From: Planctomycetaceae bacterium
GTDB lineage: Bacteria > Planctomycetota > Planctomycetia > Pirellulales > Thermoguttaceae
Direction: 5' to 3'
Assembly (NCBI GenBank): GCA_021372555.1
Contig: JAJFUI010000297.1
Location: 1 to 39,519, forward strand
DNA: 39,519 nucleotides
Shown: positions 1,561 through 18,138 of the stretch, piece by piece
Layout of the letters: each line of letters begins with the position of its first letter
How positions within the stretch are numbered: the first letter of the stretch is position 1
The notes under the pieces: generated by a model
What the model was told of the DNA's origin: nothing
Databases searched by the model: none
The model's input: the letters and a program-made list of their open reading frames with translations, nothing else
Position numbers and translations under genes: made by a program

Positions 1561-2199
1561 ATGATGCAACGACAGGTGATTAGTTCTCTGGCATTGGTTG
1601 CCCTAGCTGGGGCGTTCGTTTGGATGCGGAGCGGTGACGGTCAAACAACGCAAGTTGGAGCACCGTCGGGTACTCCGGGCTCCGCCGGTGATCATTACCG
1701 GCCGAAGTCGGTTGAATCCAAACACCTACTTCGCACCGTACAAGTCGTCGGTGAACTGGGATATCAATGGGGTACGATGGTGACCATTCGCGGAGACGTA
1801 CGGGAAAGTGATGACGGCAAGAGTACACGAGTGTTCTTCCGGGTCCGGTATGTCAACGGCAAGAAGCTGCATCAGCCTGTTGACATCGGGTTGATGCAGA
1901 TTCAGCCATTTTCTCGCGGTAGCCGCATTGAAATGGAAGTGGGAAAAGGACTCGAATTGCGCGGCTACGAGAAGGGGGTAATTATGGATTTCCCGCCCCA
2001 AGCAGTCGAAGAAGCGATCAAGGCTCGTGACCCGGCGCTGACCTATGACTACGTCAAGTTCGGCTGGAGGTTTGTGCCTTGGTTTGTTTACCTCAGTGCC
2101 AGGAACGTGCCCGGCCAGCATAACGACGTTCCCAGTACACGGGAGACTTCCGGTGCCCTGGGAAGAGATAAAGGGGTCGGAGAGATAAAGGGGACGTAA
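1561..2199 (+). CDS. Secreted or membrane-anchored hypothetical protein
   Basis: A 212-residue protein I do not recognise. The first 22 residues form a hydrophobic segment (VISSLALVALAGAFVWM) that looks like an uncleaved signal anchor or signal peptide. A Gly/Ser/Thr-rich linker follows, then a beta-rich middle (VQVVGELGYQWGTMVTIRGDV, about residues 61-81) and a conserved-looking tail. The last dozen residues (GRDKGVGEIKGT) and the TAA at 2197-2199 are encoded by AAAGGGG-type repeat sequence. The natural C-terminus was therefore probably replaced when the repeat arrived. ATG 1561 directly follows ggaagggatc, a usable ribosome-binding site. GC content is lower than in the housekeeping genes. 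Confidence 0.6.
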   Translation: MMQRQVISSLALVALAGAFVWMRSGDGQTTQVGAPSGTPGSAGDHYRPKSVESKHLLRTVQVVGELGYQWGTMVTIRGDVRESDDGKSTRVFFRVRYVNGKKLHQPVDIGLMQIQPFSRGSRIEMEVGKGLELRGYEKGVIMDFPPQAVEEAIKARDPALTYDYVKFGWRFVPWFVYLSARNVPGQHNDVPSTRETSGALGRDKGVGEIKGT

Positions 2200-2414
2200 A
2201 GGGGTCGAGAAGGAAATGGTAGTTCCCCAAGGGCCCCGGCCACCCGACAAAATTACTCAAACACCCATAATCGGTTCGTGTCCCCCGAATCCGTCGGTGG
2301 CTACAATGACGTCGTGTCAAGAATCGCGACTGTTCCTCCGTTCTCCCGCGTGGACGACCAAGGCAGCATGCATACGTATCCCCTTTGTTCTTCTTATCCC
2401 CTTTTTGTCTCCCT
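2165..2414. repeat. Gene-poor segment bounded by inverted AAAGGGG motifs (oldest-looking member of the island's repeats)
   Basis: Three units of the type agataaaggggtc / agataaaggggac / gtaaaggggtc lie at 2165-2206. The opposite arm at about 2376-2414 carries the complementary tatccccttt and tatccccttttt units, followed by gtctccc. The roughly 170 bp between the arms has no credible reading frame. The same motifs border the two better preserved elements further right (2992-3247 and 3899-4381). I infer a decayed or different member of the same family. No transposase remnant is visible in this copy. Confidence 0.5.
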
Positions 2415-2500
2415 AATCGACGAGTATTGCAGACCGTAGCCGCAAACCAAGTCTGTTTTGCTCGCCACGGTTCGGCGGTTAGGGCAAAACGGTGAAAACA

Positions 2501-3016
2501 ATGAGATCAGAAGACATCGTAGTGCCGCTCTATATAGATGATGTCTTGGAGACGCGAAAAACTCCGACTGGCTTTCTTGGAGTAGTCAGCCGGGCGATCT
2601 CGTGGCTGGACTGCCATACCCCTTTCATTATGCGTGAGAGAATTGGTCGAGGACGAAAGTCCGTTGAAGCACAGTTGCCGTTGAGGACGCACTTTCCATG
2701 TCGTGCATGGGAAGAAGATGACGCTGCTGTAGCGTTCGCACAGCAGGTGTTCGCGAAGATATGCGCGATACTGGACCTACCAAATGCATACATACATCCA
2801 CGGGACTCGCTCCGCTTGCTTTTTGCTCCCGGATACGATGACATTTGTGTTTTAGAGGCGGCGCGTTTCCTATGGAAGGAGTACGGAATGGAGCGGTTAC
2901 GGCTAAACAACTTGTTGACTGAGAACGGCACCGCAAAAGACCTAATTTCAGAATTGGAGCAGTTGCGAGACGAGAAGAGTGGGAGACGGAGAAAAGGGGA
3001 TACGTCTGCTCTGTAG
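2501..3016 (+). CDS. Hypothetical protein of the accessory island
   Basis: A 171-residue soluble protein I do not recognise. A GTG at 2492 in the same frame would add three residues; I prefer ATG 2501 because GGTGA lies 5 nt upstream of it. The protein is mixed alpha/beta with a basic stretch (RERIGRGRKS), an acidic patch (AWEEDDAAVAFAQQVF) opening a helix, and an amphipathic C-terminal helix (LISELEQLRDEK). There is no signal peptide and no clear catalytic motif. Codon use is AT-richer than in the flanking core genes, which suggests transfer. The last residues (RRRKGDTSAL) and the TAG stop are encoded within the left 30-bp inverted repeat of the adjoining element, so the original end is lost. 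Confidence 0.5.
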   Translation: MRSEDIVVPLYIDDVLETRKTPTGFLGVVSRAISWLDCHTPFIMRERIGRGRKSVEAQLPLRTHFPCRAWEEDDAAVAFAQQVFAKICAILDLPNAYIHPRDSLRLLFAPGYDDICVLEAARFLWKEYGMERLRLNNLLTENGTAKDLISELEQLRDEKSGRRRKGDTSAL

Positions 3017-3247
3017 AAAACGCTGAACCTTAGGTGTTGGCGATGCGTAAACGGTTGCATGAGCAGGACGGTTCTGCCACATTACGCCGACCTACGGTCC
3101 CGCCGCCGCGACATGATGCTCATGGTCTTGACCCACAACATCATGATCCTCTTGCCGTTCGATTTGATTCAACGAATCAAGGTTTTCTACAGAGCAGACT
3201 TATCCCCTTTTTATCTCCCTTATTGTCTATATCCCCTTTTTGTCTCC
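2992..3247 (+). mobile_element. Internally deleted insertion sequence (MITE-like), copy 1
   Basis: The element has 30-bp terminal inverted repeats at 2992-3021 and 3182-3211 that match with a single difference. The right repeat reads gttttctacagagcagac and ends in the tatccccttt motif. Inside are the first codons of a transposase (MSRT at 3059) joined directly to its C-terminus, recognisable by RRRDMMLMVLTHNIMIL, a common ending of DDE transposases. Almost the whole catalytic domain is gone. Beyond the right repeat, 3212-3247 carries further tctccct and tatccccttttt units that are also present next to copy 2. It cannot move on its own and would need a full-length relative elsewhere in the genome. 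Confidence 0.75.
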
Positions 3248-3256
3248 TAAGCACAA

Positions 3257-3910
3257 ATGGTACGCCTCTGTCTTAGAAATGCCTGGTTATACGCTGCAAT
3301 GTTGCTGTGCATCCTGAGTCTGTATGGATGCAGCACATCTCAGAAATCATCCCACTTAGAGTGCATCTCGCAATTGAAGAGAGTTTGGGAGGCCGTTCGT
3401 AGCTGCCAGGATAGGTCAGGCACCCAGCAAATCCCTGAAAGGGAGGCAGTGGTGCCATTTCGGATTTCCGATCTAGCGGTTGGAGACGTCTTCTGCCCGA
3501 TGGTCCTTCATATCACAGATGGCAGAGTGAAGAGTCCGTTGCTTCTTACATTTGCGATCAAGCGACGGAATTCTACCAATTGGGAACGCATGGTATTGGG
3601 CAAGATCGAGCCTAAGCCGCTTGTTCCCATTGTGTTCGTCGGAGATTCACTCTATTCAGACGACGGAAGATACGGACGTGGTATGATATGTTACCAGAAC
3701 AGATTGGTGGAAACGGGGTTTCTTCCGACCCTATCGTGGCCAATCGATTACAATATGAATCATACGATGGAAATTCATTTTCGTGCGGACGATAGCCGAT
3801 TCCCGTGGGCGAGCGAGATTGAGGCAATCCGAGTACAGCCGGTAGAGACCGGCACGGATCCAGATGTTAGGCACCGCTTCGGGAAGGAAATCGGAAGGAA
3901 AAGGGGATAA
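3257..3910 (+). CDS. Hypothetical lipoprotein of the accessory island
   Basis: A 217-residue protein with a lipoprotein signal: a short basic start, the hydrophobic stretch LYAAMLLCILSLYGC and a lipobox LYGC with the acylated cysteine at about residue 25. The mature part is beta-rich (VVPFRISDLAVGDVFC, LLLTFAIKRRN, PLVPIVFVGDSLYSDDG). I do not recognise the family. The gene lies entirely between two copies of the same deleted insertion sequence. Its ATG is about 10 nt after the first copy's tail, with no good ribosome-binding site, and its stop TAA (3908-3910) is inside the left inverted repeat of the second copy. Its expression signals may therefore come from the element. Base composition is low in GC for this genome. 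Confidence 0.55.
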   Translation: MVRLCLRNAWLYAAMLLCILSLYGCSTSQKSSHLECISQLKRVWEAVRSCQDRSGTQQIPEREAVVPFRISDLAVGDVFCPMVLHITDGRVKSPLLLTFAIKRRNSTNWERMVLGKIEPKPLVPIVFVGDSLYSDDGRYGRGMICYQNRLVETGFLPTLSWPIDYNMNHTMEIHFRADDSRFPWASEIEAIRVQPVETGTDPDVRHRFGKEIGRKRG

Positions 3911-4381
3911 GTCTGCTCCGTAGAAAACGCTGAACCTTAGGTGTTGGCGATGCTAGATGGTTGCATGAGCAGGACGTGCAAGTCGCCAGGGACGGTGCTT
4001 GTCACGGCTTGGATCGTCGCCAAGGCCGTGTTGCCGGCATACAGCCACCGATCCACGAAGAAGTTCACGCAGCACCAACTCTTCGCTTGCCTGGTGCTCA
4101 AGGCGTTTCTGAAGACGGATTATCGCGGGCTGATGGCCTGCCTGCAAGACACCGCCGTCTGGTGCTAAGGAACGGTGGTGAGCATGATCAAGCGTCGTCT
4201 AGGTTCTGCCACATCAGGCGGGACCTATTGGTCCCGCCGCCGCGATATGATGCTCATGGTCTTGACCCACAACATCATGATCCTCTTGCCGTTCGATTTG
4301 ATTCAACGAATCAAGGTTTTCTACAGAGCATACTTATCCCCCTTTTTATCTCCCTTTTTGTCTATATCCCCTTTTTGTCTA
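3899..4381 (+). mobile_element. Internally deleted insertion sequence, copy 2 (longer)
   Basis: The same element as copy 1, in the same orientation but with a smaller internal deletion. The left inverted repeat is at 3899-3928, the right one at 4316-4346 with one extra C, and tctccct / tatatccccttttt tail units continue to about 4381. It keeps about 65 codons of the transposase N-terminus and about 40 of its C-terminus. The two copies are near-identical at their ends, which points to one recent family. Copies 1 and 2 bracket the lipoprotein gene at 3257-3910 like a composite structure. I did not find a convincing target-site duplication. Confidence 0.75.
3965..4318 (+). pseudogene. Transposase remnant (DDE family, IS4/IS5-like)
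   Basis: The N-terminal part, 3965-4168, encodes a typical transposase start: a helix, then KKFTQHQLFACLVLKAFLK and a DYRGLMACL motif before a TAA. The same frame resumes after the stop with VVSMIKRRLGSATSGG and RRRDMMLMVLTHNIMIL, the characteristic C-terminus. The central DDE catalytic domain is missing between them, so the gene is dead. The family placement (IS4/IS5-like cut-and-paste) is from general resemblance only. Confidence 0.7.
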
Positions 4382-6104
4382 CCGGCGTTTTGGTTCGCAC
4401 CTCGACCTTGCCGAACGTCTCCAGCGGCTCGCCGACGCTAATGTGGACACGGTCCTTTTTCCAAAAGTTTGGCACTCGTCCGCCGGGCACCGGAATGCCT
4501 GATAGGACGGCGATCTTGGCCGGATCTTTTACGTCGGGCTGCGATAGACGCGCCCGCACGTCCTCTTCAAACGCCTCGCTGGTCACCAGATATCTTCCGA
4601 CTTTCTTCGCATCGGGCGTGACCACTACCTCCCGTCCGTCGCGTAACGTTACGGTGAACGGCCTGACGACCAAGTCTCGTTCGGTGATCTTGGCAACGTC
4701 GGCCAGGTTGAGGTTTATGCCGTTGACCTCCACCGTCCAGTCGCCCGACGAGAAGCGTCGCCTTTTCAAGAAGTCGAGTTGCTCGGGCTTCACCCCGGCT
4801 GCGGCCATTTTGTTTGGATCCGGCTCGATAACGATCTCCCGCCCCTCGGTGAACAACGCCGCGTAGAGTGTCTTATTTGTGTTCGCCAGTCGACCTGGCC
4901 ATTGATGTTCTTCCACCACGTAGCCGTCAGGCGTGCGTTTCGCTTCGACTGTGCACCTCTTGCCGACCTCCAATCCCGACGATGCCGGACTGTGCACGCG
5001 AAACTGGAACGTCTTCCCATCGAACTTGCCCTTCACAACACGATCTACGCGCATTGTGACGAGGTAGTTCTTCATGGAATACTGAATTGGCGACGCCTCA
5101 AGCGAGATAACGGTGCCTTCAAACGCCAGTAGATTGTCGCCGACTTTGGCTCGGACGTGTGACGTCTCCTCGTATGCAAACCGCTCCTTGCTCCGCTTCA
5201 GTACCGCCCCCGTCTTGTGGATCAATTGCCACTCGCCGCCTTTCCAGTAATAGGGAACGGGCCCATCCATGACTTGGTACGCGACGCCGCCGACGTGTAC
5301 CATCGCCACGCCATTCCGAAACGGCTCCGCCTCGTTAAACCGTGGCTTGATGACAAACCGGCCACTTTTATCGATGTATCCCCAGCCATCAGCCATCCCG
5401 CCCGTTCTCTCGGTCGCGACCGCGGCGAGACCGTCGCTGAACCGGTTAGCGGAGACGAATCTCGGTGAAATTACTGTCCTTCCCGAATGATCGATGAACC
5501 CGTATTTTTCCTCTCCCACAGTCGCGCTAGCGAGACAGAGAACGGCGAAGCCCTCGTAGAACTCCTTAGCGTAGCCATCGAGCACAAAGACTGTTTTGCC
5601 ATTCTTGTCGATGAACTTTGTTTGCCTCTGCCAATGATTGTCCCCCAGCGGCTTGTCAATTGAGACTGGCGCTACGCCTTCTCGAAAGTCTCCACCGCTT
5701 CCTTCCAGCAAAGTGATGACTGTTTTGCCATTTAGGTCGATGTACCGATCGCGTCCCCCGTCCCAGACGCGAGCGAGGCCATCGGAGAACTTATGAGCGA
5801 ATTCCAGCGTCAACGGGACAACGACCGTGCCTTGTGTGTTGATATAGCCCCACTTGCCGCCATCCTTGATGCCGGGGAATTGCCACTTCGCGCCCACATT
5901 GACGGGAGCCAATCCAAAAGCAAAATCCCCCGCATTGTCATAGACGGGCTCGATCACAACCCGGCCGGCCGCGTCTTTGAAACCGAGCTTGTCGTTCTTT
6001 ATAAACCGCACTAAGGCGGTGGCAGTCTCTTCGCCTGCCCACGCGAGCGACAACGAGCAGGCCGCGAACGCCACGCCCAACAAGATTGAAGAGACGAACT
6101 TCAT
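4362..6104 (-). CDS. Secreted WG-repeat protein with unknown C-terminal domain
   Basis: A 580-residue exported protein. The signal peptide spans about residues 1-24 with a likely cleavage after AWA. Residues 30-310 hold about six or seven WG (KWG) repeats of the form WGYID..G..VI.P.F..A..F..GLA, for example GWGYIDKSGRFVIKPRF. WG repeats fold as beta strands and are common in secreted or surface proteins of unknown role. The remaining 270 residues are a beta-rich domain I do not recognise, with DGREVVVTPD and EGREIVIEPD repeats about 85 residues apart. The C-terminal DKKGI and the TAG stop come from the neighbouring mobile-repeat tail, so the true end appears replaced. AAAGG lies 9 nt before ATG 6104. 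Both halves are clearly one open frame. Confidence 0.8.
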   Translation of the reverse strand: MKFVSSILLGVAFAACSLSLAWAGEETATALVRFIKNDKLGFKDAAGRVVIEPVYDNAGDFAFGLAPVNVGAKWQFPGIKDGGKWGYINTQGTVVVPLTLEFAHKFSDGLARVWDGGRDRYIDLNGKTVITLLEGSGGDFREGVAPVSIDKPLGDNHWQRQTKFIDKNGKTVFVLDGYAKEFYEGFAVLCLASATVGEEKYGFIDHSGRTVISPRFVSANRFSDGLAAVATERTGGMADGWGYIDKSGRFVIKPRFNEAEPFRNGVAMVHVGGVAYQVMDGPVPYYWKGGEWQLIHKTGAVLKRSKERFAYEETSHVRAKVGDNLLAFEGTVISLEASPIQYSMKNYLVTMRVDRVVKGKFDGKTFQFRVHSPASSGLEVGKRCTVEAKRTPDGYVVEEHQWPGRLANTNKTLYAALFTEGREIVIEPDPNKMAAAGVKPEQLDFLKRRRFSSGDWTVEVNGINLNLADVAKITERDLVVRPFTVTLRDGREVVVTPDAKKVGRYLVTSEAFEEDVRARLSQPDVKDPAKIAVLSGIPVPGGRVPNFWKKDRVHISVGEPLETFGKVEVRTKTPVDKKGI

Positions 6105-6272
6105 CGTCGGGTTACCTTTCGTGAATTGATCGCGGGACGAATCGGGCGCTTGGTTATATTCAGAAAAGCGGAGACGGTCAACGTTAAGGAAAGGCAGCCC
6201 AATTCTCGCCTTAAGCCCGCACTACGTGCCCGTTACCATGACGGTCGGCGGCGTGAAAATGGGTCTCGAGTT

Positions 6273-6412
6273 GCCCTCACCCTAACCCTCTCCCAGAGGG
6301 CGAGGGGACTTTTTGAGCCGTGCCGCCCTCACCGTAACCCGCTCCCGAAGGGCGAGGGGACTTTTGAACCGCACGGCCCTCACCCTAACCCTCGCCCATA
6401 GGGCGAGGGGAC
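6273..6412. repeat. Three tandem palindromic CCCTC...GAGGGG units
   Basis: Three units of about 36 bp (6273-6309, 6325-6361, 6376-6412) repeat with a period of about 52 bp. Each runs gccctcaccctaaccct, then a cccagaggg-type palindrome, then cgaggggac, so each can fold into a hairpin. The array lies 8 bp beyond the stop codon of the VIT/VWA gene and upstream of the WG-repeat gene, both on the - strand. It could therefore act as a 3' stabiliser or weak terminator. A related unit is inserted in frame in the gene at 16969-18138. No gene lies in the wider gap 6105-6420. Confidence 0.8.
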
Positions 6413-12430: not shown

Positions 12431-12433
12431 GGG

Positions 12434-13887
<1,454 letters not shown>

Positions 13888-16968: not shown

Positions 16969-18138
16969 ATGGCATACCTGATCGGGACCGATGAGGCTGG
17001 GTACGCGCCGAACCTGGGGCCGCTGGTGATTTCGGCGACCGTGTGGCAGGCGCCCGACGGGGTTGGCGGGGAGGATCTGTTCGAGCGGCTTGCGCATGTG
17101 GTGGCGAGCCGGCTGGGGCGGTCGGCAGGCTCGGCGGTGGACGGCGGAAACGGCCGGATGAGAGCGGCCAGCCCTCACCCTAGCCCTCTCCCGGAGGGAG
17201 AGGGGACGAGCAATGGCCGGCACGGCCCTGACCCTGGTCATCTCCGGGAGGCAGAGGGGACGATCGGGACGAGAAGGGTGGTGTTTGCGGATTCGAAGGT
17301 GCTTTACTCGGCGGACAAGGGGCTGCGGCATTTGGAGCGGGGGCTGTGGGCGGCAATGGGGCTGGTGGGCAGCCGCCCGGCGAAGTGGCGCGACGTTTGG
17401 CGCGCGGTGGCGCCGGACGCGCTCGACGAGATGCGGCAAGTTCCGTGGTATGCGGAGTACGACCGGCCGGCGCCGTTGGATTGCGATGGTGAGGACCTGA
17501 CATTGCTGGCCGAGCCGTTGCGGGCGGGGCTTGAGGCGGTCGGTGTGCGGCTGGTTGCGGTGCGGAGTCGGGCGATCTTCGCGCATGAGTTCAACGCGTT
17601 GGTCGATCGGCACGGCAACAAAGGAGCGGCGTTGTCGCACGAGACGCTGCGGCTGGTTGCGAGGATGATCGAGTCGCTGCCGACGAAGGGGATGGAACTG
17701 GTCGACAAGACGTGTCCCGTTGGCTGCGATTCGCTACAAACGTCTCCGTCCCCTTTCGTGTCGGTGATTTGCGACAAGCATGGCGGGCGGAATCGGTATG
17801 CGGATTTGCTGGCGGATCATTTTCCGGAGCAGTTCATCGAAATCCGCGGCGAAGGCGGCCGCCGGAGCACGTATCGCTTTGGCCCGGCTGATCGCCGCAT
17901 CGAGTTCTGCTTCCGCGTGCAGGCGGAGTCGTGCCTGCCCGCCGCCCTGGCGTCGATGGCGTCGAAGTACCTGCGGGAGCTGGCGATGCGGGCGTTCAAC
18001 GAGTTCTGGCGTCGGCACATTCCCGACTTGGAACCGACGGCCGGCTACCCGGTGGACGCGAAGCGGTTTCGCGCTAACATTGCTAAGAAACAGCGGGAGC
18101 TGAAGATCGCCGACGGGATCTTGTGGCGAGAGAGGTAA
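16969..18138 (+). CDS. RNase HII-like protein with a repeat insertion
   Basis: A 389-residue protein. Its opening LIGTDEAGYAPNLGPLVISATVW aligns with RNase HII (DEAGRGPLAGP), keeping the catalytic Asp and Glu. VVFADSKVLYS matches the family's DSKKLS. Later VSVICDKHGG offers a third acidic position, and AALASMASKYLRELAMRAFNEFW matches the SIxAKxxRD helix, followed by a GYPVDAKRF block like the family's GYGT end. True RNase HII is about 200-250 residues, so this is an expanded, divergent relative. Residues of about 62-104 are encoded by a palindromic repeat inserted in frame (SPHPSPLPEGEG). Whether the activity on RNA:DNA hybrids persists is not shown. It is divergent from the MnmE-like gene. 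Confidence 0.65.
   Translation: MAYLIGTDEAGYAPNLGPLVISATVWQAPDGVGGEDLFERLAHVVASRLGRSAGSAVDGGNGRMRAASPHPSPLPEGEGTSNGRHGPDPGHLREAEGTIGTRRVVFADSKVLYSADKGLRHLERGLWAAMGLVGSRPAKWRDVWRAVAPDALDEMRQVPWYAEYDRPAPLDCDGEDLTLLAEPLRAGLEAVGVRLVAVRSRAIFAHEFNALVDRHGNKGAALSHETLRLVARMIESLPTKGMELVDKTCPVGCDSLQTSPSPFVSVICDKHGGRNRYADLLADHFPEQFIEIRGEGGRRSTYRFGPADRRIEFCFRVQAESCLPAALASMASKYLRELAMRAFNEFWRRHIPDLEPTAGYPVDAKRFRANIAKKQRELKIADGILWRER
17171..17261. repeat. Palindromic CCCTC...GAGGGG repeat inside a coding region, two units
   Basis: One well-preserved unit (17171-17207) and one decayed unit (17225-17261) of the family seen three times at 6273-6412. The length of the insert keeps the reading frame of the RNase HII-like gene. 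The encoded peptide includes SPHPSPLPEGEG, a peptide signature typical of this repeat when it falls in genes. Confidence 0.85.

Follow-up and report, generated by a model that had tools for sequence, protein, structure and literature searches.

Short bacterial repeats have repeatedly been linked to Y1 tyrosine transposases. Repetitive extragenic palindromic (REP) sequences, REP doublets forming hairpins (REPINs) and bacterial interspersed mosaic elements (BIMEs) form short inverted doublets that lie within 20 bp of gene 3' ends, with occasional intragenic copies, and are connected with REP-associated tyrosine transposases (RAYTs) (PMC2817692, PMC3116915, PMC3733652). In TIRtrons, or TIRYT elements, the inverted arms, whose core is GGGG(A/T)(C)A(G), flank a Y1 transposase gene and overlap its end, and the repeats are dispersed as single, dimeric or grouped copies (Di Nocera et al. 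2013, PMC3733652); the terminal inverted repeats (TIRs) of published RAYT/TIRYT elements share GGGGWSAS (PMC3733652). Rickettsia palindromic elements are inserted in frame in many unrelated genes, to which they add a peptide (Ogata et al. 2000; review PMC10969869), and insertion sequences (ISs) from five families including IS5 are known to insert in REPs, among them DDE-type elements with repeat arms on both sides such as IS1397, ISPpu9 and ISNm1106 (Tobes and Pareja 2006, PMC1525189). Here we describe a repeat block in a Planctomycetaceae bacterium, located in contig JAJFUI010000297.1 (the window, a complete contig of 39,519 nucleotides), where four neighbouring genes end in repeat sequence. 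These repeats probably represent the terminal arms of REPIN- or TIR-like elements that are non-autonomous and of the RAYT/TIRYT kind; in two of the three clusters an IS5-like element lies between the arms.

The 39.5-kb window belongs to a 4.05-Mb assembly of 361 contigs, an incomplete and fragmented metagenome-assembled genome (MAG). The window holds 17 copies of AAAGGGG, of which 12 fall between 2165 and 4381, where shuffled sequences gave 4.15 +/- 2.25 for the window as a whole, and six of the nine AAAAGGGGATA matches in the whole genome lie inside this single 2-kb block. Of the remaining AAAAAGGGG matches in the genome, those that were read look unrelated. The block is made up of three clusters, E1 (2164-2410), composite 1 (2992-3246) and composite 2 (3899-4380). 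In the original prediction, the genes ending at 2199, 3016 and 3910 (plus strand) and at 4362 (minus strand) all took their stop codons from one mobile-repeat family. Direct reading of the sequence bears out that each stops in AAAGGGG-type or directly attached mobile sequence (TAA at 2197-2199, TAG at 3014-3016, TAA at 3908-3910 and TAG at 4362-4364 on the minus strand). The mobile nature of the repeats also held, and a single family for all four stops did not, one stop being supplied by the second, IS5-like element.

The identity of the arms was judged from relatives, where the ends of RAYT/TIRYT elements match the inverted arms of the window (AAAAGGGGATAAGT and variants). Y1 transposase genes were found between inverted arms, each with a variant of its own, at loci L210, L212, L216, L219, L220 and L224. 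The RAYT gene of L219 (genome G033) has AAAAGGGGATAAG, the window variant, on both sides, and both ends of its element carry the AAAAGGGGATAAGT sequence of the composite 2 left arm. Arms of the RAYT gene at L216 (G030), TAAAGGGGTCGGG, resemble the E1 left arm, in which TAAAGGGGTCGG is likewise the end of that RAYT element; further variants are TAAACGGGACAGG at L220 (G058) and GGGGACGCA at L212. The upstream arm lies approximately 90-120 bp ahead of the Y1 domain, and the relatives' transposase matches Y1_Tnp (E=8.6e-14) and scores 69 bits with NF047646, under the cut-off of 80. Five Y1 matches were found in the window's own genome, and one of these genes (contig C222) lies between AAACGGGACAGG arms. 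At this last locus (L122, ~1675-4691), one inverted AAACGGGACAGG pair encloses the RAYT gene together with a second, apparently unrelated, large transposase-like open reading frame (ORF), perhaps another IS nested in the RAYT element.

Copies without a transposase are dispersed across the family. Among 119 family genomes, 36 contained AAAAGGGGWCAGG, in up to 112 copies; the motif very often formed inverted pairs with an exact spacing of 58 bp, and the reversed control gave almost no matches. The nine AAAAGGGGATA matches in the window's own genome were too few for a genome-wide map of gene 3' ends. Reading of 120 loci in nine genomes of the same family yielded 121 elements. Inverted pairs made up 110 of these 121, 37 elements were exactly 71 bp long, and two further copies of E1 are present in the window's own genome; the repeats are therefore dispersed as non-autonomous copies and often as inverted dimers. 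Three folded elements from relatives formed long hairpins (z -8.1 to -9.5), and composite 1 folded with z -7.4. Compared with REP, REPIN and BIME sequences, no GTAG/CGTC tag was found, as the arms read AAAAGGGGWCAGG or AAAAGGGGATAAG without one, and they are terminal inverted repeats rather than self-palindromic units. Relative to TIRtrons, the present elements differ in belonging to Pirellulales, in their motif copy number, in their frequent in-frame insertion in genes and, for the window, in the variant GGGGATAA.

Composites 1 and 2 are built alike. The left arm reads AAAAGGGGATA(C/A)GT, an IS5-like remnant tipped by CTGCTCTGTAGAAAAC...TTTTCTACAGAGC follows, and tandem inverted units form the right arm. 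The right arms of the two composites are 98% identical over 42 nt and the span of IS plus arm is 97% identical over 117 nt. The tips were recognised because they are common to contig-end copies (C6, C101) and to copies in relatives G010 and G027. A AAAAGGGGWCAG-like arm stands at a fixed 4-bp spacing from 12 of 17 IS ends, compared with 0.4% for randomly chosen positions. In G010, IS copies that are nearly identical carry differing arms (AAAAGGGGTCAGGG, AAAAGCGGGTCAGAA and AAATAGGGTCAGAA), which makes the arms target or host-element sequence and no part of the IS; AAAAGGGG was rejected as an IS terminus on the same ground. The transposase fragment matches NF033579 (IS5, E=7.8e-14), under the cut-off of that model, and DDE_Tnp_1 (E=2.5e-4), and Pirellulales MAGs are the closest named records in which this IS element occurs. 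The arrangement resembles that of REP-targeting ISs and differs in its IS5-like element, RAYT-type arms and exact spacing, as seen in remnants and contig-end copies only; the window and G027 copies are degraded, the others are broken by contig ends, and target-site duplications could not be fixed. One of the contig-end copies (C101, end of L041) lies beside or within RAYT-like coding sequence.

The coordinates of the four genes and of the parts of the three clusters are collected in Table 1.

Table 1. Genes and repeat features of the window, with positions on the whole contig.
Feature	Position	Strand	Description
Gene 1	1561..2199	+	uncharacterised 212-aa protein; start may be 1777
E1 left arm	2164..2208	+	three tandem AAAGGGG units GATAAAGGGGTCGGAGAGATAAAGGGGACGTAAAGGGGTCG; holds gene 1 TAA
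Second dispersed repeat inside E1	2235..2292	+	CACCCGACAAAATTACTCAAACACCCATAATCGGTTCGTGTCCCC (CACCCGACAAAATTACTCAAACACCCATAATCGG...); matched in 21 family genomes besides own
Dispersed element E1, right part	2293..2410	-	end GGAGACAAAAAGGGGATAAGAAGAACAAAGGGGATACGTATG; own-genome copies C335:1387-1503, C65:384-488
Gene 2	2492..3016	+	orphan 174-aa candidate ORF, ~52% GC
Composite 1 left arm	2992..3005	+	AAAAGGGGATACGT; left flank of IS5-like remnant 1
IS5-like remnant 1	3006..3197	+	192 bp, internally deleted; tips CTGCTCTGTAGAAAACG...TTTTCTACAGAGCAG; supplies gene 2 TAG
Composite 1 right arm	3198..3246	-	ACTTATCCCCTTTTTATCTCCCTTATTGTCTATATCCCCTTTTTGTCTC, tandem inverted units
Gene 3	3257..3910	+	orphan 217-aa candidate ORF, ~50% GC; lipobox-like N-terminus (by eye)
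Composite 2 left arm	3899..3912	+	AAAAGGGGATAAGT; left flank of IS5-like remnant 2; supplies gene 3 TAA
IS5-like remnant 2	3913..4330	+	418 bp; degraded transposase
Composite 2 right arm	4331..4380	-	tandem inverted units; supplies gene 4 TAG
Gene 4	4362..6104	-	580-aa protein with WG beta repeats (PF14903)

Gene 1 ends in ...GRDKGVGEIKGT, its last 11 residues and the TAA lying within the three tandem GATAAAGGGG/ACGTAAAGGGG units of E1. It has no Pfam or NCBIfam match. Homologues without a repeat (L103, L106, L107 and L101) finish with other residues and the conserved core of gene 1 is complete, which is why these 11 residues look like an added tail and were not taken as conserved features of the protein. 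Gene 2 ends in ...RKGDTSAL, with its TAG in the tip of the IS5-like element (CTGCTCTGTAG, 3006-3016) outside the AAAGGGG arm, and gene 3 in ...GRKRG, with its TAA inside AAAAGGGGATAA (3899-3910). The end of gene 4, ...DKKGI, falls inside GACAAAAAGGGGATATAG; almost no homologue was found for its C-terminal half, so its end could not be compared. Whichever frame is used to enter a cluster from the left, the first stop is reached within 4-39 bp in all three, which makes the short 4-12-residue tails a mechanical outcome. Frames entering from the right are stopped within 14-91 bp, except one open frame of E1. Elsewhere in the genome, a 447-aa ORF of unknown family (C217, L038 463-1806) ends in ...RKGDTSRY, 22 bp past the start of a AAAAGGGGATA motif; it is possibly a fifth repeat-ended case, although its sequence is suggestive only.

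Two other accounts of the four ends bear on genes 2 and 3. If these ORFs were not genes, only genes 1 and 4 would end in repeats, and any open frame entering a cluster would look trimmed. The stretches holding them have 51.6% and 50.4% GC against 61.4% for the window, and the family codon model gives both ORFs slightly negative scores; searches of Pfam, NCBIfam, plasmids and phages returned nothing for gene 2, and gene 3 had no match in Pfam, NCBIfam or 147 related genomes. Their frames, however, stay open for 174-217 codons at ~50% GC, and gene 3 has a lipobox-like N-terminus and the best-scoring of its six frames (the frame of ORF 2 is beaten by one, which holds 8 stops). We therefore regard a coincidence of annotation as unlikely. 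The original prediction had also raised a cassette-like mechanism, in which recombination at the repeats would join the 3' ends of unrelated genes. Genes 2 and 3, as low-GC orphans with repeats on either side, would suit such a mechanism, and the near-identical right arms of the two composites could recombine. Nevertheless, the arms around genes 2 and 3 face outward, left-entering frames are stopped within a few dozen bases, no integrase or attC-like site was seen (no systematic search being made), and elements in relatives are self-contained inverted pairs dispersed genome-wide and inside essential genes. Gene joining is thus not supported and appears highly improbable.

The placement of RAYT/TIRYT-kind elements relative to genes was examined in relatives using gene calls from a codon-usage script. 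Of the 121 elements, 72 were extragenic, and 31 of their sides fell 0-14 bp behind a stop (null 4.9) as opposed to three falling 0-14 bp ahead of a start (null 4.7; 31 vs 3, binomial p=8e-7). The 31 sides come from eight genomes, with 22 of them in G015 and G013, and in nearly all cases the gene has its own stop a few bases before the arm. The 3'-end preference that had been inferred from the window is thus real in relatives, and the same adjacency of less than 20 bp has been published for REPs (PMC3733652). On a simple reading, it would reflect a selective filter against damage to promoters and coding sequence. Retention at 3' ends as bidirectional transcription terminators or mRNA-stabilising hairpins was also considered, a terminator-like function having been proposed for other REPs (PMC3733652). 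The hairpins are stable, a stem GGGGACAGG/CCTGTCCCC followed by TTTT has the look of an intrinsic terminator on both strands, and the stop-adjacent sides are as such a function would place them. We consider this improbable, given that 34 elements of the 121 are in-frame insertions within genes, where termination would be harmful, that a terminator scan (short loops only) scored no site at the window clusters, whose arms are ~160-400 bp apart, and that a neutral filter accounts for the bias without function.

Those 34 intragenic elements (~28%), an unexpected finding, are flanked on either side by coding signal in a single frame, for example as EKGTGPICAQHPKGRSGKLDLSPFP. They occur mostly in G058 (14), G004 (8) and G033 (7), and several are orthologous insertions shared by G004 and G058, which are species of a single genus; fewer independent events than 34 are therefore represented. 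Host genes identified by Pfam and PDB searches include TsaD, RibF, RlmN, MurE (Mur ligase), UvrD, PurF, HemD and PheT. At L161, L162, L229, L237, L239, L241, L251 and others (G033, G004 and G058), palindromic elements of 71 bp and similar size add ~24-31 residues each, and RlmN can be aligned with its PDB homologue both before and after a net insertion of 24 residues. On average 5.4 of six frames are open in elements inside genes and 4.6 of six in those outside. Their in-frame position within genes makes these elements similar to Rickettsia palindromic elements. Openness in most frames sets them apart from the latter, as do another sequence and phylum, a length of 71 bp versus ~150 bp, and the link to RAYT-type arms. 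Intragenic REPs have already been described (PMC3733652); a literature search returned no description of such in-frame insertions in Planctomycetes, a weak sign of novelty. The window itself has no in-frame insertion. A broader proposal, which we find conceivable while leaning somewhat against it, is that Pirellulales elements of ~71 bp and RAYT type decorate the proteome, being open in nearly all frames, adding in-frame peptides of 24-25 residues to essential genes and otherwise lying mostly behind stops, with the window holding stop-bearing relatives that trim or extend C-termini.

Several points weigh against assigning the window repeats to RAYT/TIRYT-kind elements that settle at gene ends. 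There is no RAYT within the window block, and the incomplete, fragmented assembly yielded no intact RAYT ending in AAAAGGGGATAAG. Relatives' arms (GGGGACAG and GGGGTCAG) fit GGGGWSAS and window arms (GGGGATAA, GGGGATAC and GGGGTCGG) deviate from it; membership therefore rests on the matching arms of RAYT genes, not on the consensus. A neighbour's stop lies inside the element in 2 of 72 extragenic cases in relatives versus four of four in the window, whose pattern is thus atypical: that the repeat supplies the stop holds at the window's four gene ends and fails as a general rule. The 3' test depends on a purpose-written gene caller.

With these points weighed, RAYT/TIRYT-kind arms remain the preferred explanation. 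The arms would be moved in trans by Y1 tyrosine transposases and copies would land at many sites, those that break genes or promoters being lost. Survivors would be copies directly behind or at stop codons, or open in frame within genes, and selection would in this way produce the 3' bias. A gene overlapped at its end by a copy would run into it and be stopped a few codons later, because the arm or the IS tip holds a stop for each left-entering frame, and a short repeat-encoded tail would be left. The window genes would then have been altered by insertion and not have arisen beside the repeats.

Two other kinds of repeat were noted in the window. A tandem 7-mer, GGCTAGT, of ~10 copies (12431-12500) covers the stop end of a minus-strand ORF ending at 12496, and ~52-bp repeats (CCCTCACCCTAACCCTCTCCC...GAGGGCGAGGGGAC) at 6259-6412 and 17157-17261 represent another dispersed family.

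The repeat-capped gene ends are genuine and best explained by biology that is already known, namely RAYT/TIRYT transposon-end repeats and a nested IS lying over gene ends. Published work already covers REP adjacency to 3' ends, REPs within genes and ISs that target REPs; the present repeats are a further, planctomycete example of transposon-derived sequence of a familiar kind, and the nested IS5-like element seems to add one more IS to those found together with repeats of transposon ends. These repeats account for odd repeat-encoded tails (KGT, KGD and KRG) on proteins of planctomycetes, a potential source of error in annotation and in the prediction of structures. What deserves most interest is how often relatives carry in-frame insertions; the dozens of copies located at gene ends or in frame within essential genes offer a tractable system for the selective filtering of mobile repeats and for separating tolerated from useful insertions.

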